A DNA stretch of 64,000 bases, from assembly GCF_963378085.1 (NCBI RefSeq), contig NZ_OY726395.1, forward strand, positions 1,488,001-1,552,000. Direction: 5' to 3'. This DNA is from Mycolicibacterium sp. MU0050 (lineage in GTDB: Bacteria; Actinomycetota; Actinomycetes; Mycobacteriales; Mycobacteriaceae). Under the pieces are notes generated by a model that saw only the letters and a list, made by a program, of their open reading frames with translations, was not told where the DNA came from and did no database searches. This document shows, piece after piece, positions 19,683 through 52,798 of this stretch (its first letter is position 1; each line of letters begins with the position of its first letter). Position numbers and translations under genes: made by a program.

Positions 19683-19711
19683 CTCGCCTGCTCCTCTCAG
19701 TGGGTTTCGGC

Positions 19712-24911: not shown

Positions 24912-24926
24912 GAGAACCGTACTCTC
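24912..24926. promoter_or_regulatory. Operator-like palindrome GAGAAC-N3-ACTCTC
   Basis: GAGAAC (24912-24917) and ACTCTC (24921-24926) around CGT match the GAGAAT-N3-ATTCTC palindrome at 10 of 12 positions. It lies 138 bases upstream of the SDR start in the divergent region. Confidence 0.4.
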
Positions 24927-25038: not shown

Positions 25039-25079
25039 GTTCTCGTCTGGCGAATGTAAGATTCGCCGAAGATGAGAAT
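25039..25079. promoter_or_regulatory. Tandem operator-like sites, 22-bp phased
   Basis: GTTCTC (25039-25044), seven bases, GAATGT (25052-25057), three bases, ATTCGC (25061-25066), seven bases, GAGAAT (25074-25079). The downstream unit matches ATTCTC-N7-GAGAAT at 11 of 12 positions, the upstream one at 8. Spacing is identical to 168-208. It ends 30 bases before the aldehyde dehydrogenase start. Confidence 0.5.
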
Positions 25080-25109
25080 CCAGTTATCAACGAGCAGGAA
25101 GGCCGCTTG

Positions 25110-29113: not shown

Positions 29114-29127
29114 GCGGGGCGGCGGTT

Positions 29128-29985: not shown

Positions 29986-30002
29986 CGGATTCGGGAAAAA
30001 CT

Positions 30003-31208
30003 GTGACAGACAATGTCGAACGCGGCAGGGCCTGGACTCGGCCCGTCGCCGGCGGGCTGGCGGTCGTCGCGATCATCGGCGTCATCGCCCTGGCGGTCGC
30101 CCTGTTTCAGGGCAGCTTCACCAAAACCGTCCCGGTGACCCTGATCTCGGATCGCGCCGGTCTGGTGATGAACGCCGACGCCAAGGTCAAGATGAACGGC
30201 GTGCAGGTCGGCAAGGTGGCCGCCATCGAGACCCGCCCCGACGGCACCGCCGAACTGCGCCTGGCCATGGATCCGAGCCAGCTGCGGCTGATCCCGGCCA
30301 ACGTCACCGCCGACATCGAATCCACCACGGTCTTCGGCGCCAAGTTCGTCAACCTCAAGGCGCCCGAGAATCCCTCGTCGCAGAAGATGGAAGCCGGTCA
30401 GGTGCTGCGCGGCGACCACGTCACCGTCGAGATCAACACCGTCTTCCAGCAGCTGACCCGGGTGCTCGACAAGATCGACCCGGTCAAGCTGAACGAGACC
30501 CTCGGCGCGATGTCCGCGGCGTTCGGTGGTCGCGGCGAGAAGTTCGGTCAGACCGTCTCCGACTTCGAGGCGCTGCTGGAGAAGCTGGAACCGAGCCTGG
30601 ACAACCTGGCCCGGGACACCGAGGCCACGGCCGTGGTGGCCGACGCCTACGCCGACGCCGCGCCGGACCTGATGCGCACGGTCGAGAACACGATCCGGGT
30701 CAGCGACAGCATCGTCGACGAGCAGCAGAACCTGGATGCGTTCCTGGTCAGCATGATCGGACTCGCCGACATCGGCAACGACGTCGTCGGCGGCAACCGT
30801 GCCGCGCTCAGCGAGACGCTGCGCCTGCTGGTCCCCACCACCGACCTCACCAACGAGTACGCCGCCGGCCTCAACTGCGCTCTCGGCGGCATGGCCACCT
30901 TGTCCAAGCAGCCGCCGGCCGCGGACCCGGGCATCGCGGTGAACGTGGCATTCGTCATGCACATCGACCGGTACCGGTACCCGTCGAGTCTGCCCAAGGT
31001 CGCGGCCAAGGGCGGGCCGCACTGCATGGGTCTGCCCGACATCGGCTTCGGTAACAAGGCGCCCTACCTGGTGACCGACACCAACTCGAACCCGTGGCAG
31101 TACGGCAACCAGGGCATCCTGCTCAACTCCGACGGCCTCAAGCAGATGCTGTTCGGACCGTTGGACGGACCGCCCCGCAACACCGCACAGATCGGACATC
31201 CGGGATGA
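30003..31208 (+). CDS. mceA: MceA family protein
   Basis: A 401-residue Mce protein: one N-terminal membrane anchor (about residues 16-36, VAGGLAVVAIIGVIALAVALF), the MCE domain (VTLISDRAGLVMNADAKVKMNGVQVGKV onward) and a helical MCE-fold extension. It starts at GTG 30003. Mce proteins A-F are thought to form a channel carrying lipids across the cell envelope to the YrbE permease. The substrate of this operon cannot be told; the gene set around it suggests a hydrophobic, possibly cyclic compound. Confidence 0.93.
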   Translation: MTDNVERGRAWTRPVAGGLAVVAIIGVIALAVALFQGSFTKTVPVTLISDRAGLVMNADAKVKMNGVQVGKVAAIETRPDGTAELRLAMDPSQLRLIPANVTADIESTTVFGAKFVNLKAPENPSSQKMEAGQVLRGDHVTVEINTVFQQLTRVLDKIDPVKLNETLGAMSAAFGGRGEKFGQTVSDFEALLEKLEPSLDNLARDTEATAVVADAYADAAPDLMRTVENTIRVSDSIVDEQQNLDAFLVSMIGLADIGNDVVGGNRAALSETLRLLVPTTDLTNEYAAGLNCALGGMATLSKQPPAADPGIAVNVAFVMHIDRYRYPSSLPKVAAKGGPHCMGLPDIGFGNKAPYLVTDTNSNPWQYGNQGILLNSDGLKQMLFGPLDGPPRNTAQIGHPG

Positions 31209-32230
31209 CGCGAACCTCGAGCACGATGGTGAAGTTCGGCATCTTCGCCACGATCATGGTGCTGCTCACCGGATTCCTGTTCATGGCGTTCGGCGAGTAC
31301 CGCGGTGGTGCCACCACGAAATACTCGGCGGTCTTCGCCGACGCGTCCCGGTTGGAGAGCGGCGACTCCGTCCGCGTCGCGGGTGTGCGGGTCGGCACCG
31401 TCGACTCGGTGTCGCTGCAGCCCGACCGCACGGTGCTGGTGAAGTTCAACGCCGAACGCCACATCAAGCTCACCACCGGCACCCAGGCCGCCGTGCGCTA
31501 CCTGAACCTGGTCGGCGACCGGTTCATGGAACTCGTGGACAGTCCCGGATCGACCAAGATCCTGCCCGCCGGTTCGCAGATCCCCGAGGAGCGCACGCAA
31601 TCCGCGCTGGACCTCGACCTGCTGCTCGGCGGCCTGCGGCCGGTGATCCAGGGCCTGAACCCGCAGGACGTCAACGCGCTGACGTCCTCGCTGATCCAGG
31701 TCCTGCAGGGCCAAGGCGGGACGCTGGAGTCGCTGCTGAGCAAGACGTCGTCGTTCTCGACCACCCTGGCCGACAACAACGAGGTGGTCGAGCAACTGAT
31801 CGACAACCTCAACGGGGTGGTGGAGACGTTGGCCGCCGACGGTGACAAGTTCTCCGGCAGCATCGACCGCCTCGAGCAGCTGATCAGCGGGCTGTCGGAG
31901 GACCGCGATCCGATCGGCACAGCCATCACGTCGTTGGACAACGGCACCGCATCGCTGGCGAGCCTGCTGACCGAGGCGCGGCCGCCGCTGAACGCCAGCG
32001 TGGACCAGCTCAACATCCTGGCGCCGCTGCTGGAGGCCGGGTCCCCGAATCTCGATGCGGCACTGCAGAAGATGCCGGAGAACTACAAGAAGCTGCGGCG
32101 GCTGGGCGCCTACGGCAGTTGGATCATGTATTACATCTGCGGCCTCAGCATCCGGGTCACCGACCTGCAGGGCCGGACCGCAGTCTTCCCGATGATCAAA
32201 CAACTGAGTGGAAGGTGCGCGGAGCCCTGA
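31205..32230 (+). CDS. mceB: MceB family protein
   Basis: A 341-residue Mce protein starting at ATG 31205, overlapping the mceA stop (ATGA). Membrane anchor about residues 11-29 (GIFATIMVLLTGFLFMAFG), then the MCE domain (YSAVFADASRLESGDSVRVAGVRVG) and a long helical part. Ends with a short Cys-containing tail (SGRCAEP). Confidence 0.93.
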   Translation: MTRTSSTMVKFGIFATIMVLLTGFLFMAFGEYRGGATTKYSAVFADASRLESGDSVRVAGVRVGTVDSVSLQPDRTVLVKFNAERHIKLTTGTQAAVRYLNLVGDRFMELVDSPGSTKILPAGSQIPEERTQSALDLDLLLGGLRPVIQGLNPQDVNALTSSLIQVLQGQGGTLESLLSKTSSFSTTLADNNEVVEQLIDNLNGVVETLAADGDKFSGSIDRLEQLISGLSEDRDPIGTAITSLDNGTASLASLLTEARPPLNASVDQLNILAPLLEAGSPNLDAALQKMPENYKKLRRLGAYGSWIMYYICGLSIRVTDLQGRTAVFPMIKQLSGRCAEP

Positions 32231-33312
32231 TGCTGAAGTACCGCGAATCAAACCTCGTTCGCGCGGGGTTCCTCGGCGCCGCACTGATCGTGCTGGTGAT
32301 CGCCGTGGGATTGCAGCCCGAGCGCCTCATCCAGTGGGCCGGCTCGGTGCGCCACCAGGCGCTGTTCTCCGAGGCCGGCGGCATCATCGTCGGCAACGAC
32401 GTGACCGTGTCCGGCATCAAGGTGGGCTCGGTGTCCGCCGTGGAGCTCGAGAACGGCGACGCCCTGGTGACTTTCACCGTGGACGGCAGGCACCCGTTGG
32501 GGTCGCAGACCACCGCGCACATCCGCACCGGCTCGCTGCTCGGCGAGCGGGTGCTGACGCTGGAGTCCGAGGGCAGCGACAAGCTGCGGCCCGGGACCGT
32601 CATCCCGGTGACGCGCACCTCCTCGCCGTATTCGCTGACCGACGCCCTGGGCGAGCTGACCACCAACACCAAGGGCACCGACACCGCAACGCTGAACCAG
32701 TCGCTGGATACGCTCTCGGCCACCATCGACCAGCTTGCCCCGCAACTGGGCCCCACCTTCGACGGGTTGTCCCGGCTGTCCCGGTCGATCAACAGCCGCA
32801 ACGAAAACCTGGCGGATCTGCTCGCCAGCGCGGGCGACGTCACCAAGGTGCTGGGGGAGCGCAGCCAGCAACTGAATGCGTTGATCCTCAATGCCAACGA
32901 CCTGCTGGGCGTCCTCAACGACCGGCGCGAGGCCATCGTCGATCTGCTGGCCAACACCGCAGCGGTGTCGCAGCAACTCAGCGGCCTGGTGGCCGACAAC
33001 GAGGCCGAACTCGCACCGTCGCTGGAGCGGCTGAACGTGGTGATGGCCATGCTGGAGAAGAACGCCGACAACATCGGCCAGGCCCTGCCGGGCATCGCCA
33101 AGTTCCAGGTGACACAGGGCGAGACGTTGGCCAACGGCCCGTACTACAACGCCTACGTGCCGAACCTCGCGGTGGCCCAGACGCTGCAGCCGTTCCTGGA
33201 TTACTCGTTCGGGTTCCGCCGCGGAACCAACGCCGGCCAGCCCGGGGATGACGCCGGACCGCGGGCCGAGTTGCCGTTGCCCTACAACGGGATCCCGGGA
33301 GGTACGCGCTGA
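32230..33312 (+). CDS. mceC: MceC family protein
   Basis: A 360-residue Mce protein starting at ATG 32230 (TGATG overlap with mceB). Anchor about residues 10-27 (VRAGFLGAALIVLVIAVG), MCE domain beginning FSEAGGIIVGNDVTVSGIKVG, then a helical needle-like region rich in Leu, Asn and Asp, and a short Pro/Gly tail. An in-frame GTG 15 bases upstream is possible but has worse spacing to a ribosome site. Confidence 0.92.
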   Translation: MLKYRESNLVRAGFLGAALIVLVIAVGLQPERLIQWAGSVRHQALFSEAGGIIVGNDVTVSGIKVGSVSAVELENGDALVTFTVDGRHPLGSQTTAHIRTGSLLGERVLTLESEGSDKLRPGTVIPVTRTSSPYSLTDALGELTTNTKGTDTATLNQSLDTLSATIDQLAPQLGPTFDGLSRLSRSINSRNENLADLLASAGDVTKVLGERSQQLNALILNANDLLGVLNDRREAIVDLLANTAAVSQQLSGLVADNEAELAPSLERLNVVMAMLEKNADNIGQALPGIAKFQVTQGETLANGPYYNAYVPNLAVAQTLQPFLDYSFGFRRGTNAGQPGDDAGPRAELPLPYNGIPGGTR

Positions 33313-34778
33313 TGCAACGCAAGCGTTTGACCGGCGTCGCGGCCATCGCGTTGGCCGTCGTGTTGGTGGCCGGCGCGGCCTACGTCGTACGGCAGCAGTT
33401 CTTCGGCTCGAAGACCATCGAGGCGTTGTTCACCTCGGCGACCGGCATCTACCCCGGGGACGAGGTCCGAGTGTCCGGGGTCAAGGTCGGCACCATCGAG
33501 GCGATCAAGCCCGAGGGCACCCAGAGCCGCCTGGTGCTCAAGGTCGATCACGACGTGGACGTGCCCGCGGACGCCAAGGCCGTGATCGTCGCGCAGAACC
33601 TCGTCGCGGCCCGCTATGTGCAACTGGCCCCCGCCTATCGCGGCACCGGTCCTACCATGGCGGACGGCACGGTGATCCCACTGGATGCCACCGCGGTCCC
33701 GGTGGAATGGGACGAGGTCAAGACGCAGCTGATGCGGCTGTCCACCGAACTGGGCCCGCAGAGCGGGGTCGACGGGACCTCGGTGTCGCGCTTCATCGAA
33801 AGTGCCGCCAACGCCATGGACGGCAACGGTGCCAAGCTGCGGGAGACCATCACCCAGCTGTCCGGCGTGTCCCGCATCCTCGCCGAGGGCAGCGGCGACA
33901 TCGTCGATATCATCACCAACCTGCAGACCTTCATGACCGCCCTGAAGAACAGCAATCAGCAGGTGGTGTCGTTCCAGAATCGGTTGGCCACGCTGACCAG
34001 CGTGGTCGACGGGAGCCGCACGGATCTCGACGCCGCACTCAAGCACCTCTCGGTGGCGGTCGTGGAGGTGCAGCGGTTCGTCGCCAACAGCCGCGACAAG
34101 ACGGCCGAGCAGATCGAACGGTTGTCCAACGTCACCCAGAACCTCGTCGACCACAAGATCGACCTGGAGAACATCCTGCACGTGGCGCCGAATGCGTTCG
34201 CCAACGGTTACAACATCTACAACCCGGACGCCGGTAGCCCGGTGGGGCAGTTCGTGTTGCACAACTTCTCCAACCCGGTCGAGTTCATCTGCGGCGCCAT
34301 CGGCGCGGTGGAGAACACCACCGCCCCGGAGACCGCCAAGCTGTGCTCGCAGTACCTCGGGCCCGCGCTGCGGTTGCTGAACTTCAACAACCTGCCGTTC
34401 CCGGTCGCCCCGTACCTGATGAAGTCCGCGAGCCCGGAGAACCTCATCTACTCCGAGCCGGGCCTGGCGCCCGGCGGCGGGGGCGGCTCGCCCGAGCTCC
34501 CGGAGGCTCCACCGGCGATCTCGGCCTATCCGCGGGACGTGCCGCCCGGCCCGCCACCGTTCACCGGACGCGCCCCGGGCGTCCCGCCGCCGGGTGCCCA
34601 GCAGATGCTGCCGGGTGCACCCCCGGTGGTGCCGCCCAACGTGCTGGCCAACATCGGCGACGTGCTGAACCCGGCAGGTGTTCCGCCGGGGCCGGCACCG
34701 GGGCCCGCCCCCGGCGCACCGCTGGCCGCCGAAGCGCCGGCCGGACCGCCTCCGGCAGAAGGGATGCCGCCAGCATGA
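33312..34778 (+). CDS. mceD: MceD family protein with Pro-rich tail
   Basis: A 488-residue Mce protein. Anchor about residues 8-26 (VAAIALAVVLVAGAAYVV), MCE domain from FTSATGIYPGDEVRVSGVKVG, helical region, then from about residue 385 a long Pro/Gly/Ala-rich tail (PPGPPPFTGRAPGVPPPG), typical of MceD proteins and perhaps spanning or binding the cell wall. Starts with a one-base overlap with mceC. Confidence 0.93.
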   Translation: MQRKRLTGVAAIALAVVLVAGAAYVVRQQFFGSKTIEALFTSATGIYPGDEVRVSGVKVGTIEAIKPEGTQSRLVLKVDHDVDVPADAKAVIVAQNLVAARYVQLAPAYRGTGPTMADGTVIPLDATAVPVEWDEVKTQLMRLSTELGPQSGVDGTSVSRFIESAANAMDGNGAKLRETITQLSGVSRILAEGSGDIVDIITNLQTFMTALKNSNQQVVSFQNRLATLTSVVDGSRTDLDAALKHLSVAVVEVQRFVANSRDKTAEQIERLSNVTQNLVDHKIDLENILHVAPNAFANGYNIYNPDAGSPVGQFVLHNFSNPVEFICGAIGAVENTTAPETAKLCSQYLGPALRLLNFNNLPFPVAPYLMKSASPENLIYSEPGLAPGGGGGSPELPEAPPAISAYPRDVPPGPPPFTGRAPGVPPPGAQQMLPGAPPVVPPNVLANIGDVLNPAGVPPGPAPGPAPGAPLAAEAPAGPPPAEGMPPA

Positions 34779-36130
34779 TGGGCAAGAGATCCATTCGGAT
34801 GGCGATCGCGACCGCGGGCTGCGTCGCGCTGGCCACCAGCGGATGCGCGTTCCAGGGCGTGAACTCGCTGCCGCTGCCGGGCGCTGTCGGCCGCGGTGCG
34901 GACGCGAAGGTCTACCACGTCGAGATCGCGAATGTGGCCACGCTGGAACCGAATTCGCCGGTGATGATCAACGATGTCGTGGTCGGCAGCGTGCGCAAGA
35001 TGTCGGTGACCGACTGGCATGCCGACATCGAGTTCTCGGTGCAGCCCGGCGTCGAGGTGCCGGCCAACGCCGTGGCGACCATCGGCCAGACCAGCCTGCT
35101 CGGGTCGATGCACCTGGCGCTGAATCCGCCTGTCGGGGAGGCGCCCGCCGACCCGCTACCGGAGGGCGCGACGATCCCGCTGAGCGACTCGTCGACCTAT
35201 CCCACCACCGAACAGACGCTGGCCTCGCTGGCGGCCGTGGTGACCGGCGGCGGCCTCGGCCAGATCGGCGACGTCATCCACAACTTCAGCACCGCGCTCA
35301 ACGGCCGGGAAAGCGACGTCCGCGACCTGCTGACCCGGCTGGACACTTTCGTCGGCACGCTGGACGCCCAGCGGGACAACATCGTGGCCTCGGTGGAGTC
35401 GCTGAACCGGCTCGCAGGCACCTTCGCCGGTCAGCGCGACACCATCACGCAGGCGCTGGACCGGATTCCGCCCGCGATCGACGTCCTGATCCAGCAGCGG
35501 CCGCGGTTGACGACGGCCCTGCAAAAGCTCGGAACGTTCAGCGACACCGCCAACCAGCTGGCCAACGACTCGCAGGCCGACCTGGTGCGCAACCTGAAAA
35601 ATCTGGAACCGACGCTCAAGGCGCTGGCCGACATCGGACCGGACCTGGGTGAGGTGCTCGGTTACGCCCCGACGTTCCCGTACACCCAGAGCTTCATGGA
35701 CCGCGGCATCCGCGGCGACTACTACAACCTGTTCGCCACCATCGACCTGACGATTCCGCGGTTGAAGCGAACGCTGTTCCTCGGTACCCGGTGGGGCGAC
35801 CAGGACGTCCAGTTGGTGCCGGCGCCGGGGGACCCGTACTACCTGAACTACACCTATGACCCGCTGAAGACGGGCGCGACGCCGCCGCCGCCGGACGCCT
35901 TCCCGGCGATGCCGGAGGCCGAAGCGCCGGTGGCCCTGCAACAGGGGCCGCCGCCGCCGATCCCGCCCGAGGTCGGACCCATCCTGCCGTTCACCCCGCC
36001 CGAGCCGTTCCAGGTGCCCGGCGCGCCGGTCTACCTGACGGCACCGCCCGCCAAGCCCGGAGACCCGATCTTCGCCGGACCCTTTGGCGCCGAACCGGAC
36101 TCGTCCGCACCCACTGACGGAGGTGGCTGA
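34775..36130 (+). CDS. mceE: MceE family lipoprotein
   Basis: A 451-residue Mce lipoprotein. The N terminus MMGKRSIRMAIATAGCVAL is followed by the lipobox ATSGC, placing the lipidated Cys at about residue 24. MCE domain (VYHVEIANVATLEPNSPVMINDVVVG), helical region, then a Pro-rich C terminus. The ATG overlaps the mceD stop by four bases. Lipoprotein status at position E matches mycobacterial mce operons. Confidence 0.93.
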   Translation: MMGKRSIRMAIATAGCVALATSGCAFQGVNSLPLPGAVGRGADAKVYHVEIANVATLEPNSPVMINDVVVGSVRKMSVTDWHADIEFSVQPGVEVPANAVATIGQTSLLGSMHLALNPPVGEAPADPLPEGATIPLSDSSTYPTTEQTLASLAAVVTGGGLGQIGDVIHNFSTALNGRESDVRDLLTRLDTFVGTLDAQRDNIVASVESLNRLAGTFAGQRDTITQALDRIPPAIDVLIQQRPRLTTALQKLGTFSDTANQLANDSQADLVRNLKNLEPTLKALADIGPDLGEVLGYAPTFPYTQSFMDRGIRGDYYNLFATIDLTIPRLKRTLFLGTRWGDQDVQLVPAPGDPYYLNYTYDPLKTGATPPPPDAFPAMPEAEAPVALQQGPPPPIPPEVGPILPFTPPEPFQVPGAPVYLTAPPAKPGDPIFAGPFGAEPDSSAPTDGGG

Positions 36131-37899
36131 TGCTCACGCGTTTCGTCCGAACGCAGCTGATCCTCTTCACCATCGCCTCGATCGTGGGAGTGGCGGTGAT
36201 GCTGTTCGCCTACATGCAGCTACCCACGCTGCTGGGGGTGGGGCGGCTCACGGTCACGATGAACCTGCCGGCCACCGGTGGGCTCTACCAGTTCAGCAAC
36301 GTCACCTACCGCGGCTCGCAGATCGGCAAGGTCACCTCCGTCGAGCTGACCGAAACCGGTGCCCGGGCAACGTTGTCGCTGGACCGATCGCCGAAGATTC
36401 CCGCGGACCTGCAGGCCCAGGTGCTGAGCATGTCGGCGGTCGGCGAGCAGTACGTCGACCTGCAGCCGCGCACGGATTCGGGGCCGTACCTGGAGAACGG
36501 CGCGGTGATCGCGATGGAGGACACCACCATTCCGCAGGAGGTGGGCCCCATGCTCGACCAGGTGAGTGCCCTGATGGACACCATTCCGAAGGACCAGCTG
36601 AGTCACCTGCTCGACGAGACCTTCGAGGCCTTCAACGGCACGGGATACGATTTCGGCTCGCTGCTCGATTCGGCGTCGACCATCACCCGCGATGCCAACG
36701 CCATCTCGGACCGTACCCGCGCCCTGATCGACGACTCCCGCCCGTTCCTGGAAGCCCAAGAGCAAACCACGGATTCGACCCGGACCTGGGGGCGCAGCCT
36801 CGCCGGTATCACCGAGCAGCTGTCGAACAACGATCCCGAGTTCCGCGCCGTGCTGGCGAACGGTCCCGGCTTCGCGCAGGAGACCTCCCGGTTGCTCGAC
36901 CAGGTGAAGCCGACGCTGCCGGTGCTGCTGGCGAACATGACCACGATCGGGCAGGTCGGGGTGACCTACAACGCGTCCATCGAGCAGTTGCTGGTGTTGC
37001 TGCCGCCGTACGTCGCGCAGATCCAGACGTATGCACCGATCAACAACCCGGCCGGCATGCCGAACGGTGACTTCTCGCTGGGGCTCGGGGACCCGAACTC
37101 CTGCACGGTGGGCTTCCTGCCGCCGTCGGCGTGGCGGTCGCCGTCGGACACGGAGGTCGTCGACACCCCGGACGACATCTACTGCAAGCTCCCGCAGGAC
37201 TCGCCGATCGCGGTCCGCGGTGCCCGTAACTACCCCTGCATGGCGCATCCGGGCAAGCGGGCTCCGACGGTCGAATTGTGCAACGACCCCGAGGGTTTCA
37301 AGCCGTTGGCCACCCGTCAGCATTCGCTCGGGCCCTACCCGATAGACCCGAACCTGATCGCTCAGGGTGTTCGTCCGGACAGCCGGGCGCTCGCGGACTC
37401 GCAGATCTTCGGGCCCGTCGAAGGCACCCCGCTGCCGGCCGGAGTCGCTGCCCCGCCGCCCCCGGCGCCGCTGTCGCCGCCCAATGCGCCGCCGCCGAAT
37501 TTCGCGGGCACGGGCCCCGGGCCGTTGCTGCCGGGGCAACCGATGTACCTCGAGCCGCCGGTGACGCCGCCGGCGCCGCCGCAGATCCACAATCCGGCGA
37601 CCACGCCCGATGATCCCGCGCATGCGCCACACGCCACCCAGGTTCCGTTGCCGCCGGGCGTGGCGCCCGGACAGCTCCCGATGCCCCCGGGTGTCGAGGA
37701 AATCCCCAACTCGGGCACCCCGGCGATACCGCAGGCCAGCCCAAGTTCGTTCGGGGACAAGGCCGCTGGTGGCCCGTCGGTGGCCGTGGCCAAGTACAAC
37801 CCCCGCACCGGGGAGTACATGGGCTCCGACGGCGCGCTCTACCAGCAGGCGAACCTCGCCAAGACTCCGACGTCGTGGACCGACCTGATGCCCACCTGA
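36130..37899 (+). CDS. mceF: MceF family protein with long Pro-rich tail
   Basis: A 589-residue Mce protein, last of the six. Anchor about residues 10-30 (LILFTIASIVGVAVMLFAYM), MCE domain (LTVTMNLPATGGLYQFSNVTYRGSQIG), long helical part, then a Cys-containing segment and a Pro-rich region of about 160 residues (APPPPAPLSPPNAPPPNF). The operon closes with a hairpin 13 bases after the stop. Confidence 0.93.
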   Translation: MLTRFVRTQLILFTIASIVGVAVMLFAYMQLPTLLGVGRLTVTMNLPATGGLYQFSNVTYRGSQIGKVTSVELTETGARATLSLDRSPKIPADLQAQVLSMSAVGEQYVDLQPRTDSGPYLENGAVIAMEDTTIPQEVGPMLDQVSALMDTIPKDQLSHLLDETFEAFNGTGYDFGSLLDSASTITRDANAISDRTRALIDDSRPFLEAQEQTTDSTRTWGRSLAGITEQLSNNDPEFRAVLANGPGFAQETSRLLDQVKPTLPVLLANMTTIGQVGVTYNASIEQLLVLLPPYVAQIQTYAPINNPAGMPNGDFSLGLGDPNSCTVGFLPPSAWRSPSDTEVVDTPDDIYCKLPQDSPIAVRGARNYPCMAHPGKRAPTVELCNDPEGFKPLATRQHSLGPYPIDPNLIAQGVRPDSRALADSQIFGPVEGTPLPAGVAAPPPPAPLSPPNAPPPNFAGTGPGPLLPGQPMYLEPPVTPPAPPQIHNPATTPDDPAHAPHATQVPLPPGVAPGQLPMPPGVEEIPNSGTPAIPQASPSSFGDKAAGGPSVAVAKYNPRTGEYMGSDGALYQQANLAKTPTSWTDLMPT

Positions 37900-37911
37900 G
37901 AAGTGGTGGTG

Positions 37912-37954
37912 AACGCAGGACCGGCCACGGGAGATCCGTGGCCGGTGTTGCGTT
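37912..37954 (+). terminator. Terminator hairpin of the mce operon
   Basis: ACCGGCCACGG (37920-37930) pairs exactly with 37936-37946 around GAGAT; the outer AACGCA/TGCGTT (37912-37917 and 37949-37954) extends the stem across a small internal loop. It begins 13 bases after the mceF stop. Confidence 0.8.
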
Positions 37955-38185
37955 ACGGGGTCGGCCTGTCGGCCGGTGTCGCATAGCTTTTCGCGGCGGG
38001 CAGATGCTGCAGGTCAGGATCGGCAGTTGCCCCGCGAGCCCGCGGTCGGGTTCGCGAAATTGCCGGCATGGTCGTTCTGCCCGACTTGCAACGACCGTGG
38101 GCGCAACTTGGGGCGCTGGCAGCCGACGGCGGGCGCGAGACGACCTAGCCGCAGGCCGCCCTGCTGCCCACGGGTGGGGACGGTG

Positions 38186-38695
38186 TCAGATCTTCCTCAT
38201 GAAGAACGGCATCCGGATGTGCGGCCACTGGTTGCGGCCGCAGGAGCCGCTGGGACCGGTGGTGACGTCCTCACCGGCGTACTCGTTGGACTTGACGTCC
38301 ACGCGACCGTCGGCGCCCACGGGGTAGAGCAGGTAGGTCTGCAGGCCCTCGATGGGCTGGCCGTCGGCGCACCACCGCCATTCCGGCCACGCGCGTTTGA
38401 CGTACCAGACGCCGCTCTTGGTGTAGATCGGCGCGGTCCATCCCTGATCGCTGTTGACGGTGCCGGCGCAGTCCACCGGCGTGGTGCACACGGTGGAGAT
38501 GGTCCAGGTGCTGCGGGTGCTCGGCTGCTTCTCGTAGCGGTCGTTGACCTTGGCCCATTCGCCGTTCGAGGAGGTTTCGAACGTGCCGTTGATGCCCCAG
38601 TTCGGGGTGGCGTCGGCGACGGCAGGAGCGCCGACGCCCGTCGCCACCAGCGCCGCCACTGCCGCTGCCGTCGCACTTGCCTTGAAGGCCGACAT
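38186..38695 (-). CDS. Small secreted protein of unknown function
   Basis: A 169-residue exported protein. From ATG 38695 (TAGGAG upstream) it has a clear signal peptide (FKASATAAAVAALVATGVGAPAVADA, cleavage near AVADA). The mature part has four or five Cys (VCTTPVDCAG, WCADG, SGSCG) and many Trp (GVWYVKRAWPEWRWC), suggesting a compact disulphide-bonded domain. I do not recognise a named family. A perfect ATTCTC-N7-GAGAAT site lies 31 bases upstream. Located just after the mce operon, on the opposite strand. Confidence 0.78.
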   Translation of the reverse strand: MSAFKASATAAAVAALVATGVGAPAVADATPNWGINGTFETSSNGEWAKVNDRYEKQPSTRSTWTISTVCTTPVDCAGTVNSDQGWTAPIYTKSGVWYVKRAWPEWRWCADGQPIEGLQTYLLYPVGADGRVDVKSNEYAGEDVTTGPSGSCGRNQWPHIRMPFFMRKI

Positions 38696-38725
38696 CAATG
38701 CGCTCCTAGCTCCACCGATAGCGTG

Positions 38726-38744
38726 ATTCTCAGATTCGGAGAAT
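38726..38744. promoter_or_regulatory. Operator-like site ATTCTC-N7-GAGAAT (perfect)
   Basis: ATTCTC (38726-38731) and GAGAAT (38739-38744) are perfect inverted 6-bp arms around AGATTCG, 31 bases before the start of the exported protein at 38695. Same arms and spacer length as 41020-41038. Confidence 0.65.
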
Positions 38745-38809
38745 ATCACTGCCGCCTGGGTCCGCGGTGCTATCGAGCCTAAAACGGCGGCCCCGCATCG
38801 CCGGTGGTT

Positions 38810-39403
38810 TCAGACGAACTCGACCTGGGCGATCTTGAACTCGCCGCCGTCGTCGGCCAGCGTCACCGCGACCCGAAAACGCTGCGGTTCGCGGCGGGCG
38901 TCCTCGGCGTTGGCCGCCTGGCTGGTCGCCGCGACCAGGACCACCGGTGCTTGATCGGAATCGGGTTCCACCGCGACCGAATTCACCGTGACCTCCGTGC
39001 GGACCTCCGACTGCGCGAGGGACTCGATCAGCATGTCCGCCTGGGCCTCGAACTCCTCCTTGAAGTCGCCCGTGGCGCTGTCGATGATGCTCTGCACATT
39101 CTCGGCGGCATTGGCGTAATCGAGGGTCATCAGGTTGACCACCCCCTGCCGGGCGATGGCGGCGTATTCGGCGTGCTGGGCCGAAACCTGCGTGAGCGAG
39201 CGGTGCTGCCAGGTCAGGTAACCGCTGGCGGCCAGCAACCCGCAGATCGCCACGACGGCTGCCGCGAGCCCGGCCCGCAGGATCAAGCCCGATCGGGCCC
39301 GGGGCCGCGCGTCGGCGGCCGCCTCGGCTTCCTGAGCGGTCACGGCCGCCTCCGCCGCGGACGGGGCGGAGGTGTCGTCATTCTCGGGTGCCTCGGGTGC
39401 CAT
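38810..39403 (-). CDS. Mce-associated membrane protein
   Basis: A 197-residue protein starting at ATG 39403. An acidic, Ala-rich cytoplasmic N terminus (about 35 residues) is followed by one membrane helix (LILRAGLAAAVVAICGLLAASGYL) and a periplasmic domain (LDYANAAENVQSIIDSATGDFKEEF) like the Mas proteins usually encoded after mceF. Here it is on the opposite strand and separated by the small exported protein. It probably stabilises or assists the Mce complex. Confidence 0.82.
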   Translation of the reverse strand: MAPEAPENDDTSAPSAAEAAVTAQEAEAAADARPRARSGLILRAGLAAAVVAICGLLAASGYLTWQHRSLTQVSAQHAEYAAIARQGVVNLMTLDYANAAENVQSIIDSATGDFKEEFEAQADMLIESLAQSEVRTEVTVNSVAVEPDSDQAPVVLVAATSQAANAEDARREPQRFRVAVTLADDGGEFKIAQVEFV

Positions 39404-39501
39404 CGCCCGTCTGCTCCATCCGTCGTCGGCTGCGAATCCGTCTCGGAGCCTAGCGTTTATCCACGGCCCCGGCGGGCGGGCACCGGCGGCCGCTGAGTAA
39501 T

Positions 39502-39520
39502 CTTCTCCGAAATGAAGAGT
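39502..39520. promoter_or_regulatory. Weak operator-like site
   Basis: CTTCTC (39502-39507), seven bases, AAGAGT (39515-39520) matches the ATTCTC-N7-GAGAAT consensus at 9 of 12 positions and lies 29 bases before the GTG at 39550. The placement matches the stronger sites, but the score alone is not convincing. Confidence 0.3.
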
Positions 39521-39549
39521 TTCGTTTCCAGCTGTGCGAAAGTGTTCAC

Positions 39550-39963
39550 GTGCGTGTGATGGTGATGGCCGCCGCCGCGGCAACGGTGGGCGCGATGCTC
39601 AGTGCGCCGGCGGCGACGGTGAGTGCGCCGGTGGCCCAGGCGGGCCCGCAAACCTGCAACGACGCCTTCTGCGTCCCCGGCATCCGGCCCAACGTGGTGC
39701 TGGGTTCGTACTGCGACAACACGTCCTACTTCGTGTTCGGGACCGCGGTCGCCGGCCCGTCCATCCAGCCCGGGCGGTTGGTGTTCTGTGGCTCGCCGCG
39801 CCGCTACGAGCCGAGGTGGTTCCGTTCGCCACCGTTGGCCGGGATCCGCGACGAGGGCAGCCAATGCTCGAGTGAGCTGCACATGGTGGCCCAGGCGCCC
39901 GATGGCCTGTTCCTGAGCTGCATCGCCCACAGCGGTGAGGCGCTCTGGCGGCGCGGCGACTGA
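39550..39963 (+). CDS. Small secreted protein of unknown function
   Basis: A 137-residue exported protein from GTG 39550 (an ATG three codons on is possible). Signal peptide VMAAAAATVGAMLSAPAATVSA with cleavage near VSAPVAQA, then a mature region with six Cys (TCNDAFC, SYC, FCG, QCSS, SCIA), likely three disulphides. No family recognised. It stands alone between minus-strand genes, in the cluster of small exported proteins beside mce. Confidence 0.7.
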   Translation: MRVMVMAAAAATVGAMLSAPAATVSAPVAQAGPQTCNDAFCVPGIRPNVVLGSYCDNTSYFVFGTAVAGPSIQPGRLVFCGSPRRYEPRWFRSPPLAGIRDEGSQCSSELHMVAQAPDGLFLSCIAHSGEALWRRGD

Positions 39964-40020
39964 GCCGCAGCGCCACCGCGCGGGCCGAGTTCGCCGCCGG
40001 CGCTGCCGGATTGCGCGTCG

Positions 40021-40440
40021 TTACCAGTTACGGATCGAGCAGAGCGCGCCCTTGGGGCCGCTGTCGGTCTTGACGACCACGCCGTCGACCGCGAGCTCAC
40101 AGCTGTATCCGGGCACGGGGAAGTTCGGCGCCTCGCCGCTTTGCACGGCCACCATCGCCCACAGGTTCGGGTCGGCCAGGTGGGCCTCGAGCACCCATGG
40201 CTGACCAGGTCCCACCTCGGCGTCGGCGCGCGGGCTGAACATGTACGGGTTGTGGCTGTAGTCGGAGAACAACGCGGGCTCGGTGTCCCGGTAGTAGATG
40301 TGCGACCAGATGGGCGCGTTCGCGGTGACGGTGTACCGGACATGGTGCAGGACCGGCTCATTCGCGCCGACGGGGGCAGCGGTGCCGAGGGATCCGGCCA
40401 GCATGGCCAGCGCGGCGGCCGAGGAAACTAGAGCACGCAT
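40021..40440 (-). CDS. Secreted protein with MmpS-like domain
   Basis: A 139-residue exported protein starting MRALVSSAAALAMLAGSLG, signal cleavage near VGANE. The mature part (VRYTVTANAPIWSHIYYRDTE, then PWVLEAHL, VAVQSG, CELAVDGVVVKTDSG and CSI near the end) follows the order of MmpS proteins, including the two Cys and the VDGVV segment, but it has a cleavable-type signal instead of the MmpS membrane anchor. No mmpL is nearby. Two bases separate it from the gene upstream (40443), so they form an operon. Confidence 0.7.
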   Translation of the reverse strand: MRALVSSAAALAMLAGSLGTAAPVGANEPVLHHVRYTVTANAPIWSHIYYRDTEPALFSDYSHNPYMFSPRADAEVGPGQPWVLEAHLADPNLWAMVAVQSGEAPNFPVPGYSCELAVDGVVVKTDSGPKGALCSIRNW

Positions 40441-40442
40441 CG

Positions 40443-40916
40443 TCACATCCTGGTCAACGAGATCGGGTAGGTGAAGCTGCCGCCGGGGGCGCCGTCGCAC
40501 CCGGTCGCGAACGAGGACACCATCTCACCGGCCAGCGTGTCCTTGTGCCAGCGGTAGACGTCGTGGGTCGGTATGACGGGACCGTAGTAGATGTCCCCGC
40601 AGCGCAGGCCGAACGGGTCGTCGATGACCATGGTGTAGAAGCCGTCGTCACCGAGCATGGCGTCGGCGTGGGTGTACTTCGCCTTGGCCACCGGCTGGGG
40701 GATGGTCTGCACCCGGATGCAGGTGGCGCCCTCGACCGGGAAGCCCCGGCATGGGGTCATCGCGGCGAAGATCCAGGTGTGGAAGTCACGGCGGTCCGGG
40801 ATGTGCAGGTTGTAATTGCCGTAGAACATTGCCGACGCCGGCGGTGCGAACAAGATCGTCGCCGACACCAGCACGATGCCGGCGAGCGCGCTCAGCACGG
40901 ACCGGATGGGCTTCAC
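40443..40916 (-). CDS. Small secreted protein of unknown function
   Basis: A 157-residue exported protein starting at GTG 40916 with GGAGGA upstream. Signal peptide IRSVLSALAGIVLVSATILF ending at PPASA, then MFYGNYNLHIPDRRDFHTWIF and a mature domain with four Cys (PCRG, TCIR, RCGD, GCDG). The pattern fits a family of small mycobacterial secreted proteins without known role. First gene of the pair with the MmpS-like protein; the perfect operator at 41020 lies about 100 bases upstream, between it and the CoA ligase. Confidence 0.72.
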   Translation of the reverse strand: MKPIRSVLSALAGIVLVSATILFAPPASAMFYGNYNLHIPDRRDFHTWIFAAMTPCRGFPVEGATCIRVQTIPQPVAKAKYTHADAMLGDDGFYTMVIDDPFGLRCGDIYYGPVIPTHDVYRWHKDTLAGEMVSSFATGCDGAPGGSFTYPISLTRM

Positions 40917-41019
40917 GGGCTTCCTCCACGGTTCATCGACTGTCCGGCTGACTATAAAACTCCGACCGAGGTCGCCGGGCCGAAACCGGAATCCCGCCTT
41001 CGCCGCACCGGAGATTGGC

Positions 41020-41038
41020 ATTCTCGCTTCCGGAGAAT
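41020..41038. promoter_or_regulatory. Operator-like site ATTCTC-N7-GAGAAT (perfect)
   Basis: ATTCTC (41020-41025) and GAGAAT (41033-41038) are perfect arms around GCTTCCG, 35 bases before the CoA ligase start at 41074 and 103 bases before the divergent exported protein at 40916. Confidence 0.65.
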
Positions 41039-41073
41039 AGCATCATCGACGACGGTGAGGAGTGCACAGGCCG

Positions 41074-42640
<1,567 letters not shown>

Positions 42641-42651
<11 letters not shown>

Positions 42652-46218: not shown

Positions 46219-47085
46219 GTGGCTGAGTTCGAGAGCATTTGGAGCGATCTTCAGGGCGTTCCGTTCTCGCAGGGGTACCTGGACGCCGGCGGTGTACGCA
46301 CCCGATACCTGCACGCCGGGGACCCCGAAAAGCCCGCCCTGGTGCTGCTGCACGGCTCCGGCGGACACGCCGAGGCCTACGTCCGCAACCTCGCCGCCCA
46401 CGCCGAACACTTCTCCACCTGGTCGATCGACATGCTGGGGCACGGTTACACCGACAAGCCGGGACACCCCCTGGAGATCGCGCACTACGTGAAGCACCTG
46501 CTGGCCGTCTTCGACGCGATCGACGCCGAGCGGGTGTACCTGTCCGGGGAGTCGCTCGGCGGCTGGGTGGCCTCCCGGGCCGCCGCCGATCACCCCGAGC
46601 GGATCCACCGGTTGGTCCTCAACACCGCCGGCGGCTCGCAGGCCGACCCGGAGGTGATGAAGCGCATCATCACGCTGTCGATGGCCGCGGTCGAGGATCC
46701 GAGCTGGGAGACGGTGCAGGCGCGGATCAAGTGGTTGATGGCCGACAAGTCCAAGGACTACGACGACATCGTGGCCAGCCGCCAGCGGATCTACCGGTTG
46801 CCGGGATTCGTCGACGCGATGCGCGACATCATGGCGTTGCAGGACCCGGAGATCCGGGCTCGAAACCTGATGGGCCCCAAGGAGTACGGCGCCATCACCG
46901 CCCCGACGCTGGTGCTGTGGACCAGCGACGACCCGACCGCCGACGTCAGCGAGGGCAGCCGGATCGCCTCGATGATCCCCGGCGCCCGGTTCGAGGTGAT
47001 GGCCGGCTGCGGGCACTGGCCGCAGTACGAGGATCCCGACACGTTCAACCGCCTGCACGTCGACTTCCTGTTGGGGCGGTCGTAA
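46219..47085 (+). CDS. Alpha/beta hydrolase, meta-cleavage product hydrolase type
   Basis: A 288-residue hydrolase starting at GTG 46219. LLHGSGGHAEAY is the oxyanion region, LSGESLGGWVAS the nucleophile elbow (Ser112), LWTSDDPTADVSEG the acid region and AGCGHWPQYEDP the His. This matches C-C bond hydrolases such as MhpC/BphD/HsaD, which cleave the product of an extradiol dioxygenase. It heads the operon containing MhpA and MhpB homologues, which supports that role. A second candidate hydrolase lies at 55363. Confidence 0.85.
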   Translation: MAEFESIWSDLQGVPFSQGYLDAGGVRTRYLHAGDPEKPALVLLHGSGGHAEAYVRNLAAHAEHFSTWSIDMLGHGYTDKPGHPLEIAHYVKHLLAVFDAIDAERVYLSGESLGGWVASRAAADHPERIHRLVLNTAGGSQADPEVMKRIITLSMAAVEDPSWETVQARIKWLMADKSKDYDDIVASRQRIYRLPGFVDAMRDIMALQDPEIRARNLMGPKEYGAITAPTLVLWTSDDPTADVSEGSRIASMIPGARFEVMAGCGHWPQYEDPDTFNRLHVDFLLGRS

Positions 47086-48813
47086 GTGGCCGCCGCGCAG
47101 AGTGGTTCAGACCGCCCCGCGGTGGTGATCGTCGGGGCCGGGCCGGTGGGCCTTACCCTGGCGAACATCCTTGGCCTGCAGGGTGTTCGGACGCTGATCG
47201 TGGAGGAACGCGACACGCTGATCGACTACCCGCGCGGCGTCGGTCTCGACGACGAGTCGCTGCGGACGTTCCAGTCGATCGGCCTGGTCGACGCCGTGCT
47301 GCCGCACACCGTCCCGAACCAGATCCTGCGGTTCTTCGATTCCAACCGCCGCCTGCTGGTCGAGATGGCGCCCCCGGACGCCCGCTTCGGCTGGCCCAAA
47401 CGCAACGGCTTCGTCCAGCCCCTCGTCGACGCCGAATTGTTCGCCGGCCTGCGCCGTTTCGACCATGTCGAGATCCGCTGGGGCACCAGGATGACCGCCG
47501 TGACCGAGACCGCCGAGGGTGTCACGGTGGAGCTGGCCGGCCCCGACGGCGCCGGCTCCCAGGTCCACGCCGGCTACGTCGTCGGCTGCGACGGCGGGCG
47601 CAGCGCCACCCGCCACCTGATGGGCGTCTCCTTCGAGGGCACCACCTCGCCCACCCGCTGGGTGGTCATCGACCTGGCCAATGACCCGCTGGGCCACCCC
47701 AACAGCGAGGTCGGCGCCGACCCCGAGCGCCCGTACGCCTCGATCTCGATCGCCCACGGTATCCGCCGGTTCGAGTTCATGATCCACGACGACGAATCCG
47801 ACGAGCTGGCCTCCGATCCGGCGTTCGTCAGCCGGCTGCTGGCCAGTTTCGTCCCGCATCCCGACCAGGTCGACATCATCCGGCATCGGGTCTACACGCA
47901 CCACTCGCGCATCGCCGGCGCCTTCCGCAAGGGGCGGATGCTGCTGGCCGGCGACGCCGCCCACCTCATGCCGGTGTGGCAGGGGCAGGGGTACAACAGC
48001 GGGATCCGCGACGCCGCAAACCTGGGTTGGAAACTGGCGGCCGTGGTCAACGGCCACGCCGGCGACGCCCTGCTGGACAGCTACGACGTGGAACGGCGCA
48101 AGCACGCGCGCGCCATGATCGACCTGTCCACCATGGTGGGCCGGGTCATCTCGCCGACCAACCGCCGCGTCGCCGGGGTGCGTGACAAGCTCATTCGTGC
48201 GGCGTCCATCGTCCCGTCGCTCAAGCGGTATGTGCTGGAGATGCGGTTCAAGCCGATGCCGCGCTACGAGCAGGGCGCGGTCGTACATGCCGCCACCCCG
48301 CCCCCGCCGGGGTCGGCGGCCGGCACCCTGTTCATCCAGCCGCGGGTCGACACCCGCACCGAGCAGAACGTCCTGCTCGACGACGTCATCGGCACCGGCT
48401 TCGCGGTGCTGTGCTGGAACAACGACCCCCGCCGACTGCTCGGAACGGAGATGCTCGAGCGGTGGAAGGCGTTGGGCACCACCTTCATTGCCGCGCGACC
48501 GAGCACCCAGTTGCATTGGCGACCGGACGGCGAGAGCGTCGACGACCCCGACGTGGTCGTGGTCGGTGACCGCACCGGGGCGCTGAAGTCCTTCTTCGAC
48601 GGTCACACCGACTCGGTGTTGTTCCTGCGGCCGGACCGCTGCATCGCCGCGGCCTGTGTGGCCCAGCGCGCAGCCGAGATGAGTTCCGAGGTGTTCTCGG
48701 TCCTGCACGCCGATGCCCCGAAGCCTGCGAAAGGCGGTGAGAACCATGGCGCAACTGGCACTGTGTTGCATGTCGCACAGCCCGCTGCTGAATCTTCCGG
48801 GACCGTCGGCTGA
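47086..48813 (+). CDS. mhpA: MhpA-like 3-(3-hydroxyphenyl)propionate hydroxylase
   Basis: A 575-residue FAD aromatic hydroxylase. [18 protein letters not shown] binds the ADP part of [16 protein letters not shown] is the DG motif and [21 protein letters not shown] the GD motif. Segments such as [25 protein letters not shown] and [11 protein letters not shown] closely follow E. coli MhpA, which hydroxylates 3-(3-hydroxyphenyl)propionate to the catechol. The true substrate may be a related phenol. GTG start one base after the hydrolase stop; the 3' end overlaps the dioxygenase gene by 68 bases. Confidence 0.88.
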
Positions 48814-49687
48814 CCTGCTCACCGACATCGAGGCCGCGCTGGCCGGTGCGCGCGACTTCGTCGCCGACTTCGCCCCGGACGTCGTGGTGACCTTCTCGCC
48901 GGATCACTACAACGGCTTCTTCTACAAGCTTATGCCCCCGTTCTGCATCGGCACTTCGGCGTCGGGGGTGGGCGACTACGGCACCCAGGCCGGTCCGCTG
49001 AACGTCGCCGAAGACCTCGCCAACGCCTGCGCGGCAGCGGTGCTCGACGCCGACGTCGACGTCGCGATCTCGGCCGGCATGGAGGTCGACCACGGCACCG
49101 TGCAGCCTCTGCAGACGTTGTTCGGCGACGCCGCGGCGGTGCCGATCATCCCGGTGTTCATCAACTCGGTCGCCACCCCGTTGGGACCCGTCCGCCGGGT
49201 GCGGGCGCTGGGCACCGCCATCGGGGCCTTCCTGGCGACGCTGGACAAGCGGGTGCTGGTACTGGGATCCGGTGGCCTGTCGCATGATCCGCCGGTGCCG
49301 ACGCTGGCGACGGCGCCCCCGGCCGCGCTGGACCGCATCGTGCGCGGCGTCGCCATGAGCCCGGAGCAACGCAGCGCCCGCCAGGACGCGGTGATCGCCG
49401 CCGCCCACGACTTCGCCCACGGCGAGTCGGCGCTGCAGCCGCTGAATCCGGACTGGGACCGCGCGTTCCTGGAACTGCTCGACGCCAACCGGCTTGCCGA
49501 GGTCGACACCTGGTCCAACGGCGACATCGCCGCCGCGGCCGGAAACTCCGCCCACGAGGTCCGGACCTGGATCGCGGCCTTCGCCGCGCTGGCCGCCTCC
49601 GGTCGGTACGTGACCGCTCACCACTATTACCGCCCGGCGCCGGAACTCATCGCCGGGTTCGCAATCCGAACGGCGGTGCCCGCATGA
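48746..49687 (+). CDS. mhpB: MhpB-like extradiol catechol dioxygenase (LigB type)
   Basis: A 313-residue class III extradiol dioxygenase close to E. coli Mhp[35 protein letters not shown] and [12 protein letters not shown] carry His11, His54, His116 and His180; the last two correspond to the catalytic His115 and His179 of MhpB. It opens a catechol ring next to the hydroxyls using Fe(II). The ATG at 48746 (AAAGGCGGTG upstream) lies inside the mhpA gene; the frame upstream of it is not needed. Confidence 0.93.
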
Positions 49688-51465
49688 CGGCCAACGACAA
49701 CGACCACGCAGCGACCTTCGATCACGAGGTCGACGTGTTGGTCATCGGCAGCGGCGGCGGCGGGCTGACCGCCGCGTTGACCGCTCAGGCCGAGGGGTTG
49801 GATGCCCTCGTCGTCGAGAAGTCGGCCCACTACGGCGGTTCCACGGCGCTCTCCGGCGGCGGCATCTGGGTGCCGGGTGCGCCCTCGCAGCGCCGCGAGG
49901 GCTATTCGCCGGACCCGGATGAGGTCTTCGGCTACCTCAAGCAGATCACCGGCGGGCTGGTCAGCGATGCCCGGCTGCGCAAGTACGTCGAGGCCGCGCC
50001 GGAGATGATGCAGTTCCTGGAGGACCGCAGCCGCTGGTTCGAGTTCGTCTGGAAGCCCGGCTACGCCGACTACTACCCGGAACTGCCGGGCGGTTCGGCC
50101 CTGGGCAGCACCATCAACGTGCCGGCCATCGATCTGCGCAAGCTCGGCGCCGAGGAACAGAACCTGTTGCAGCCGTTGGCGCTGGCGCCCAAGGGCATCT
50201 GGTTCGCGCCCAAGGATCTGCGCCTGTTCTACCAGGTCCGGCAGAACTGGCGCGGTAAGGCGGTGCTGGTCAAGCTGATCTGGCGGATGTTCCGGGCCAG
50301 GGTCTTCGGCGACCGGATGGCCGCCATCGGGCAATCCCTGGTGGCCCGGATGCGACTGGCCCTGCAGGAGCACGACATTCCGCTGTGGCTCAACACGCCG
50401 ATGACCGAGCTCATCACCGACGGGGACGGGCCGGGGGCGCGGGTGATCGGCGCCGTCGTCGAACAGGATGGCCGGACCCGTCGGATCGGGGCCCGTGCCG
50501 GGGTCATCATCGCCGCCGGCGGATTCGACCACGACATGGCCTGGCGCCGCGAACATCTGCCGGAGCTGGAGCAGGACTGGAGCTTCGGTAACCCGGCGGC
50601 CACCGGTGACGGCATCCGCGCCGGCCAGAAGGTCGGCGCCGCCACGGATCTGATGGACGAGGCCTGGTGGTTCCCGGCCATGTGCTGGCCCGACGGTCGG
50701 TTGCAGTTCATGCTCAACGAGCGCATGATGCCGGCGCAATTCGTGGTCAACGGCGCGGGCAAGCGGTTCATCAACGAGGCCGCCCCCTACATGGACTTCG
50801 CGCACGCGATGATCGAGGGCCAGCGCTCGGGGGTCACCCACATCCCGGTCTGGCTGATCACCGACCAGCGGTCGTTCCACCGCTACGTGGTGGGTGGCCA
50901 CCTACCCATCCCGAAGATCCCGTTCGCGCCGGTGCCGACCGGCCGGAAGATCCCGCAGGCCTGGTTGGACTCCGGGATCGTCAAGGAAGGCAAGAGTTTC
51001 GAGGAGCTGGCCGCGCAGATCGACGTGCCGCCGGCCGCACTACGGGAGACCGCCGAACGCTTCAACGAACTGGCCCGCAAGGGTCACGACGACGACTTCG
51101 CCCGGGGTGACAGCGCCTACGACAACTACTACGGTGACCCGACGCTGCCGAACCCGAACCTGTACCCGCTGTCGAAGCCGCCGTACTACGCGTTCCAGAT
51201 CATCCTGGGTGATCTGGGCACCTCCGGTGGGCTGCGCACCGACGAGCACGCCCGGGTGCTCGACACCGAAGACCGGCACATCCCCGGCCTGTACGCGGTG
51301 GGCAATGCCTCGGCCGCGGTGATGGGCCGCAGCTACGCCGGCGCGGGCGCCACCATCGGCCCCGCGATGGCCTTCGGCTACGTCGCCGCCAAACACGCCG
51401 CCCAGAACCACCCCGTCCGGAACCCGCAACAACCGCAAGTCCACGACAACGTCCGCAACGCCTGA
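49684..51465 (+). CDS. 3-ketosteroid dehydrogenase-like flavoprotein
   Basis: A 593-residue FAD dehydrogenase overlapping mhpB by four bases. [17 protein letters not shown] and [22 protein letters not shown] bind [22 protein letters not shown] and [17 protein letters not shown] are typical of KstD and KsdD-like enzymes, and the length suits them. It should desaturate a ring ketone. Sitting between an aromatic dioxygenase and a flavin monooxygenase, it may help convert a cyclohexanone-type ring into the phenol used by MhpA; that is inference. Confidence 0.88.
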
Positions 51466-51476
51466 GGAGGCACCCG

Positions 51477-52796: not shown

Positions 52797-52798
52797 GC

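Follow-up and report, generated by a model that had tools for sequence, protein, structure and literature searches.

We found that a 64,000-nucleotide stretch of the Mycolicibacterium sp. MU0050 chromosome (the window; G000:C1:1488001-1552000 of the 5.22-Mb genome) carries copies of an operator, the 15-bp palindrome GAGAAT-N3-ATTCTC, which recurs before catabolic genes and before the gene of a TetR-family protein, TetR1, located 24 kb upstream of the window (G000:C1:1463346-1464005, minus strand). We judge, with a probability of about 0.8, that these sites are the operators of TetR1 and that TetR1 is an autorepressor that controls a catabolic regulon through 15-bp units placed on a 22-bp lattice. 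A preliminary description of the window had proposed a different site, ATTCTC-N7-GAGAAT. The true core has the same half-sites turned inside out, and the two perfect N7 copies in the window are junctions between neighbouring operators rather than the site itself.

The arrangement of the half-sites was read from a count of all perfect half-site pairs with spacers of 0-24 in the contigs of 80 named TetR1 loci (1.68 Mb, from Mycobacterium, Mycolicibacterium, Mycolicibacter, Nocardia, Aldersonia and some metagenome bins) and in 144 kb of our own genome around the window. The count yielded 162 GAGAAT-N3-ATTCTC pairs compared to 6 ATTCTC-N7-GAGAAT pairs and at most 2 of any other arrangement, with the 162 sites drawn from related genomes and falling to 49-58 once dereplicated. 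This overturned the N7 architecture, which had also been our early working model for the unit and was dropped after the spacing histogram. A logo of 76 dereplicated sites places GAGAAT three bases outside ATTCTC.

The N7 sites recur pairwise, exactly 22 bp apart. Beside 58 dereplicated perfect cores, an extra half-site fits best at N7 (z 3.3), and beside 19 perfect N7 sites, an extra half-site fits best at N3 (z 4.4), where spacers of 0-30 were compared among themselves and relatedness was left uncorrected. Therefore, both forms belong to one lattice with a 22-bp period. Type A promoters have a perfect core with weak flanking halves at N7, while in type B promoters a pair of imperfect cores stands 22 bp apart, and the inner halves of the pair, which are perfect, make up the ATTCTC-N7-GAGAAT palindrome that was read first. 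In the type B tandem at 38717-38753, cores at 38717-38731 and 38739-38753 (3 mismatches each) are 22 bp apart, and their inner halves form the N7 copy at 38726-38744; in the tandem at 41011-41047, cores at 41011-41025 (1 mismatch) and 41033-41047 (2 mismatches) have the same distance, and their inner halves form the N7 copy at 41020-41038. Since each copy joins two cores 22 bp apart, both are junctions. The preliminary description was correct that the two copies are perfect, with zero mismatches, and that they stand 30-40 bases before a start codon: the distance is 30 bases to the ATG at 38695 (minus strand) and 35 bases to the ATG at 41074, a start that was picked from the first residues of orthologues. 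Thus, what looks locally like one palindromic site can instead be the place where two sites meet.

In our own genome, there are five perfect N3 cores, all within 1457095-1565355 (109 kb around the window), so that perfect cores are restricted to one cluster; one of them is at window position 11-25. With up to one mismatch there are 13 cores, nine of them in that cluster. The number of perfect cores expected in the 144 kb around the window, taken as the regional background with 200 dinucleotide shuffles, was 0.0. Perfect N7 sites number three in the whole 5.22 Mb, at 38726 and 41020 in the window and 13 kb downstream of it; the shuffle mean for the 144 kb was 0.005, and none of the 200 shuffles reached three. 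In 13 fetched loci outside the cluster, 17 N7 sites have 1-2 mismatches, an approximate figure that leaves 15 more of the 37 uncovered, and most of the 17 are inside genes. The reversed-pattern control gave 5 sites compared to 37 in the N7 scan and 5 compared to 60 in the core scan. This control inflates the enrichment, as GC-rich DNA of this kind contains fewer CTTA/TAAG words, and we therefore relied on perfect sites, spacer controls and co-occurrence.

The sites are conserved at orthologous promoters. Perfect N7 sites are present in 117 of the 148 genomes of our genus sample, and the reversed control in one. When 20 perfect N7 sites from relatives were fetched, 17 were at orthologous promoters, namely those of the CoA ligase (13, by coordinates) and of an enoyl-CoA hydratase (4, by eye from translations). 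As for the remaining three, L077 falls within a called gene in a genome that lacks TetR1, L073 is another palindrome and L070 is unplaced. We observed that G036 (for example at L073), and also G123 and G086, contain a different, fully palindromic 19-mer, ATTCTCTAAAATAGAGAAT, with close variants, which matches the N7 pattern. This 19-mer is repeated five to six times in G036 and raises the N7 counts, and it looks like another element. For the core, 218 sites with up to one mismatch were found in the 80 named loci, and only 13 of them are deeper than 120 bp within a called gene. On these points, and with perfect cores confined to one cluster, the shared operator came through the refutation tests set in the preliminary description.

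The preliminary description also stated that, within the window, no candidate regulator gene has the motif in its own promoter. This holds for the window TetR genes at 6796 and 57847 (best sites with 4-5 mismatches) but not for TetR1, 24 kb outside the window. Among six TetR genes in or near the window that were checked, a core was found upstream of TetR1 only, as a perfect copy at G000:C1:1464109-1464123 between TetR1 and acyl-CoA dehydrogenase genes that diverge from it. Across the 80 named loci, the 400-bp region upstream of TetR1 contains a perfect core in 75, a core with one mismatch in 4 and a core with two mismatches in 1. As controls in the same regions, the reversed pattern always had at least 3 mismatches, spacers of N2 or N4 mostly had 4, and the N7 form had at least 2 mismatches in all 80.

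TetR1 carries a TetR_N helix-turn-helix domain (PF00440, 30.5 bits compared to a cut-off of 24), and in its predicted structure (predicted local distance difference test score 83) the helices of this motif are at 54-71. The nearest solved folds to the model are EthR2 (Rv0078; TM-score 0.72, Foldseek E 5.5e-8) and FadR, with 16-21% identity to TetR1 among the matches listed. Its N-terminal stretch (P0001 residues 10-47) is basic, nearly invariant in 23 homologues and modelled as one helix joined to the first helix of TetR1, and it is more conserved than the ligand domain.

The presence of the core follows that of TetR1. TetR1 was found at E 1e-40 in 121 of the 148 genus genomes (74-100% identity, best matches), and perfect cores were found in 122, usually in 4-8 copies, compared to one genome for the reversed control. 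In these counts, genomes without a listed match were assigned by elimination, and G069 was scored as lacking TetR1 despite two TetR1 fragments (97% and 65% identical). A perfect core is present in 119/121 genus genomes with TetR1 and in 3/27 without it, and at least two perfect cores are present in 117/121 and 1/27 (G147), respectively. In a family sample of 151 genomes from 31 genera, 10 of which are also in the genus sample, a perfect core is present in 32/33 genomes with TetR1 and 9/118 without it, and at least two are present in 29/33 compared to 0/118 (19/23 compared to 0/118 outside our own genus). Taken together, these results suggest that TetR1 reads the core.

Several observations weigh against this assignment. 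The nine family genomes that have one perfect core each and no TetR1 set a background, G043 has one core and no TetR1 was found in it, and G147 has eight cores and a second TetR-family gene, TetR2, with no TetR1 orthologue found in an assembly that is 93% complete in 700 contigs. Conversely, the TetR1 carriers G055, G088 and G241 have no perfect core, and no core within 2 mismatches was found in the 1.5-kb TetR1 flanks of G088, G062 and G025. Of the four off-cluster cores with one mismatch in our own genome, two are inside called genes and two are intergenic beside seemingly unrelated genes. In addition, the lattice is equally compatible with a 13-bp N7 dimer unit and with the N3 unit. If the functional dimer site were ATTCTC-N7-GAGAAT, the N3 core would be no more than a pair of these sites placed back to back, both with a weak outer half. 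This would suit the wide distribution of perfect N7 sites in the genus, the outer halves that perfect cores do bear at N7, and the site at 38726, where the N7 form is perfect and the cores are only weak. We nevertheless consider it unlikely, since perfect N3 pairs far outnumber N7 pairs around TetR1 and the TetR1 promoters keep the core and not the N7 form; moreover, KstR uses a hexamer-N2/N3-hexamer form (PMC1995591), and part of the N7 counts is due to the longer palindrome of G036.

A further difficulty is that TetR2 (G000:C1:1563825-1564478, plus strand), which is in the same cluster 76 kb past the window start, is an equally good tracker in the genus: at least two cores are present in 117/118 genomes with TetR2 and in 1/30 without it. 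TetR2 also adjoins the CoA-ligase/hydratase promoters in many relatives, and G147 has its eight cores with TetR2. The choice of TetR1 therefore rests on autoregulation and a few family genomes. The best site upstream of TetR2 has 4 mismatches. The family genomes G166, G177, G191, G226 and G275 have TetR1, 2-6 cores and no TetR2 match at E 1e-40, G138 has TetR1 and four cores without TetR2, and G250, the sole family genome with TetR2 only, has no core. The matches of TetR2 are mostly near 60% identical and those of TetR1 near 80%. On these grounds TetR2 was set aside, and we regard it as quite unlikely to own the operator. In G055, a 1-mismatch core precedes TetR1, and a close TetR2 relative (78%) adjoins TetR1 (G055:C1:4098186-4101836, L178). 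It is very improbable that the sites belong to KstR or a paralogue, although the KstR motif TAGAAC-N2-GTTCTA has similar half-sites (PMC1995591). In the 144 kb, AGAAC-N2-GTTCT had 0 matches, TnnAACnnGTTnnA one and AGAACNNGTTCT none, and with the KstR core absent from the cluster KstR was set aside as the regulator. In addition, KstR is described in all analysed mycobacteria except M. leprae (PMC3388012, our only source for its presence), whereas the core is missing from 24 of the 27 genus genomes that lack TetR1. Palindromes arising by chance in AT-rich promoters would account for the window count at up to 3 mismatches, which is near expectation: the window alone contains 13 N7 sites compared to 8.28 ± 3.22 in shuffles, 10 of 100 of which reach at least 13. 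Shuffles, orthologous conservation and co-occurrence leave this explanation next to no probability; it was ruled out for perfect and 1-mismatch sites and stands for the site at 39502.

Based on the parallel with KstR and KstR2, the natural reading is that a TetR1 dimer represses via GAGAAT-N3-ATTCTC. One dimer would read one 15-bp unit. Since the 22-bp lattice corresponds to about two helical turns, dimers could bind side by side, presumably cooperatively, and the basic N-terminal stretch might, as a guess, help neighbouring dimers to pack at 22 bp. Without an inducer, TetR1 would cover the promoters of the catabolic regulon and its own promoter, acting as a repressor rather than an activator. 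The steps under its control would include CoA activation, acyl-CoA dehydrogenation, hydration, Rieske/P450 oxygenation, amidohydrolase-fold enzymes and a B12-dependent mutase, and a pathway substrate or CoA-thioester intermediate would release TetR1. FadR is an acyl-CoA-responsive TetR-family protein, so a CoA-thioester effector for TetR1 would fit, weakly.

As the preliminary description had supposed, one shared, conserved operator precedes amidohydrolase, acyl-CoA dehydrogenase, short-chain dehydrogenase/reductase (SDR)/aldehyde dehydrogenase and CoA-ligase genes. With a simple gene caller, a gene start falls between -120 and +350 bp for 211 of the 218 cores in the named loci. Their commonest neighbours are orthologues of TetR1 (72), of amidohydrolase gene 296 (56) and of two acyl-CoA dehydrogenases (23 and 17, the latter being gene 21031), followed by SDRs (15 and 14), a Rieske oxygenase (15) and a P450 (15). 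In our own genome, cores are also found 5′ of genes for an enoyl-CoA hydratase, amidohydrolases, a MeaB-like GTPase, and a 2Fe-2S ferredoxin with a CoA ligase.

In the window, the perfect core GAGAAT-CAT-ATTCTC (11-25) has on one side a minus-strand Rieske oxygenase gene, which is outside the window, and on the other the putative target 296-1594 (plus strand), which encodes an amidohydrolase-fold protein (PF04909); a 1-mismatch N7 form (ATTCTC-N7-GAGAAG, 168-186) is also 5′ of this gene, with a 4-mismatch copy 22 bp on. The 1-mismatch cores AAGAAT-GGA-ATTCTC (20875-20889) and TAGAAT-GAT-ATTCTC (20962-20976) are flanked by two putative targets, a second PF04909 gene (19712-20818, minus strand; another follows at 18498-19682) and the acyl-CoA dehydrogenase gene (21031-22200, plus strand). 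The two adjacent PF04909 genes (18498-20818, minus strand) have an arrangement that recalls AibH1-AibH2, the gene pair for a diiron monooxygenase. Two weak cores with 2 mismatches each (24912-24926 and 25074-25088, the latter joining a 1-mismatch N7 form at 25061-25079) are next to a putative target for a mycofactocin-coupled SDR oxidoreductase (23914-24774, minus strand; TIGR03971, 342 bits compared to a cut-off of 300) and another for an aldehyde dehydrogenase (25110-26612, plus strand, start as in the preliminary description), whose TIGR04284 score of 625 bits falls short of the 775-bit cut-off and which is followed 3′ by a family III CoA-transferase gene (26609-27817, PF02515). The type B tandems precede the putative targets 38186-38695 (minus strand), for a small exported protein with an Rv2253/PknI dimerisation-type domain (NF052447, 66 bits compared to a cut-off of 35), and 41074-42651 (plus strand), for an AMP-binding acyl-CoA ligase. 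Orthologues of the latter were found in 77 of the 148 genus genomes, all 77 with TetR1. Among the near matches named in the preliminary description, those at 296 and 20818/21031 are borne out and that at 24774/25110 is plausible, while that at 39550 (site at 39502, 3 mismatches) is no better than chance. Their description as always intergenic holds only with shorter gene starts: longest-open-reading-frame calls place several sites just inside 5′ ends, and the N7 form at 25061 is inside such a call, yet 5′ of the likelier start at 25110.

The proposed link to the mce operon was not supported. The genes at 28166-37899 are a true mce set, with two MlaE permeases and five Mce proteins (Pfam), and no core with up to 3 mismatches was found in 25089-38716, which spans them; therefore, the mce genes have no operator of their own. 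Read-through from the aldehyde-dehydrogenase promoter could reach them. Further on, 46219-53632 contains genes that resemble, by eye from their first residues, a meta-cleavage aromatic or steroid-ring module (hydrolase, flavin monooxygenase, extradiol dioxygenase and flavin dehydrogenase), and a scan of this region found no core with up to 2 mismatches. Outside the window, a mutase pair at L016:4580-6589 (G000:C1:1452580-1454589) consists of a methylmalonyl-CoA-mutase-type large subunit and a B12-binding small subunit (TIGR00641, TIGR00640); a 2-mismatch core is upstream of it, and the MeaB-like GTPase gene, 10 kb further along, has a perfect core next to it.

The amidohydrolase at 77379 (window coordinates, beyond the window) matched 4dzi, PtmU3, DitZ and ACMSD in the PDB. 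4dzi is a mycobacterial-type hydrolase without an assigned role, and DitZ, from its name, presumably takes part in diterpenoid breakdown. PtmU3 is a diiron beta-hydroxylase that acts on CoA-linked diterpenoids, and AibH1H2 is a diiron monooxygenase of the amidohydrolase fold (PMC7782822). With low confidence, the kinships with PtmU3, AibH1H2 and DitZ suggest a bulky isoprenoid-like substrate. A broader picture, which we hold to be possible but doubtful, is that environmental mycobacteria, Nocardia and related genera share an undescribed catabolic regulon with TetR1 as its master switch, and that the substrate degraded is bulky, either cyclic or branched, and perhaps terpenoid-like. The PF04909 proteins might then be diiron oxygenases or thioester-acting enzymes, the B12 mutase would rearrange branched carbon, and two lattice phases (N3-core and N7-core) read by one protein would give control that is graded and not all-or-none. 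Literature searches on DitZ, PtmU3, terpenes or an mce link found no paper on this cluster.

If our assignment is true, a regulon conserved in about four fifths of the sampled genus species, and in seven more genera within the family sample, would at once gain a regulator by name, an exact operator and a list of genes to test. The assignment would also offer a handle on what the large P450/amidohydrolase/acyl-CoA clusters degrade, as well as a promoter-regulator pair usable in mycobacterial biotechnology. In the open-access literature, which leaves most subscription papers out of scope, searches with the exact operator strings found no paper that prints the site, and broader searches found none that describes the operator or regulon. 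Within that literature, TetR1 and its core are a new regulator-operator pair of a type that is already known.

EthR2/Rv0078 and FadR, the nearest folds of the TetR1 model, belong to other operons. KstR3 of Mycolicibacterium neoaurum is, like TetR1, a TetR-type regulator, acting negatively on a catabolic operon far from the sterol cluster; the described neighbours of the two differ, in that KstR3 controls atf1-chsH4-chsE6 (PMC10398937; the excerpt used gives no KstR3 motif) and TetR1 adjoins acyl-CoA dehydrogenase genes. KstR and KstR2 are TetR repressors that bind 14-bp palindromes (PMC1995591, PMC3068626). KstR2 resembles TetR1 as a small autoregulated TetR protein with about three promoter sites near its gene (PMC3068626), but it has the motif AnCAAGnnCTTGnT, which by inspection has no core in common with the GAGAAT/ATTCTC half-sites, and other genes. 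The preliminary description had set the site apart from that of KstR, whereas in form the core, a hexamer-N3-hexamer palindrome, comes near the KstR motif. KstR (Rv3574) is likewise an autoregulated TetR repressor with a promoter-overlapping hexamer palindrome and a large mycobacterial lipid-catabolic regulon, and its half-site TAGAAC resembles GAGAAT (PMC1995591). No KstR chain was among the 11 matches listed for TetR1 in the PDB at E 0.001, and the TetR1 sites differ from those of KstR in having N3 instead of N2, other outer bases, a 22-bp lattice and a different gene cluster.

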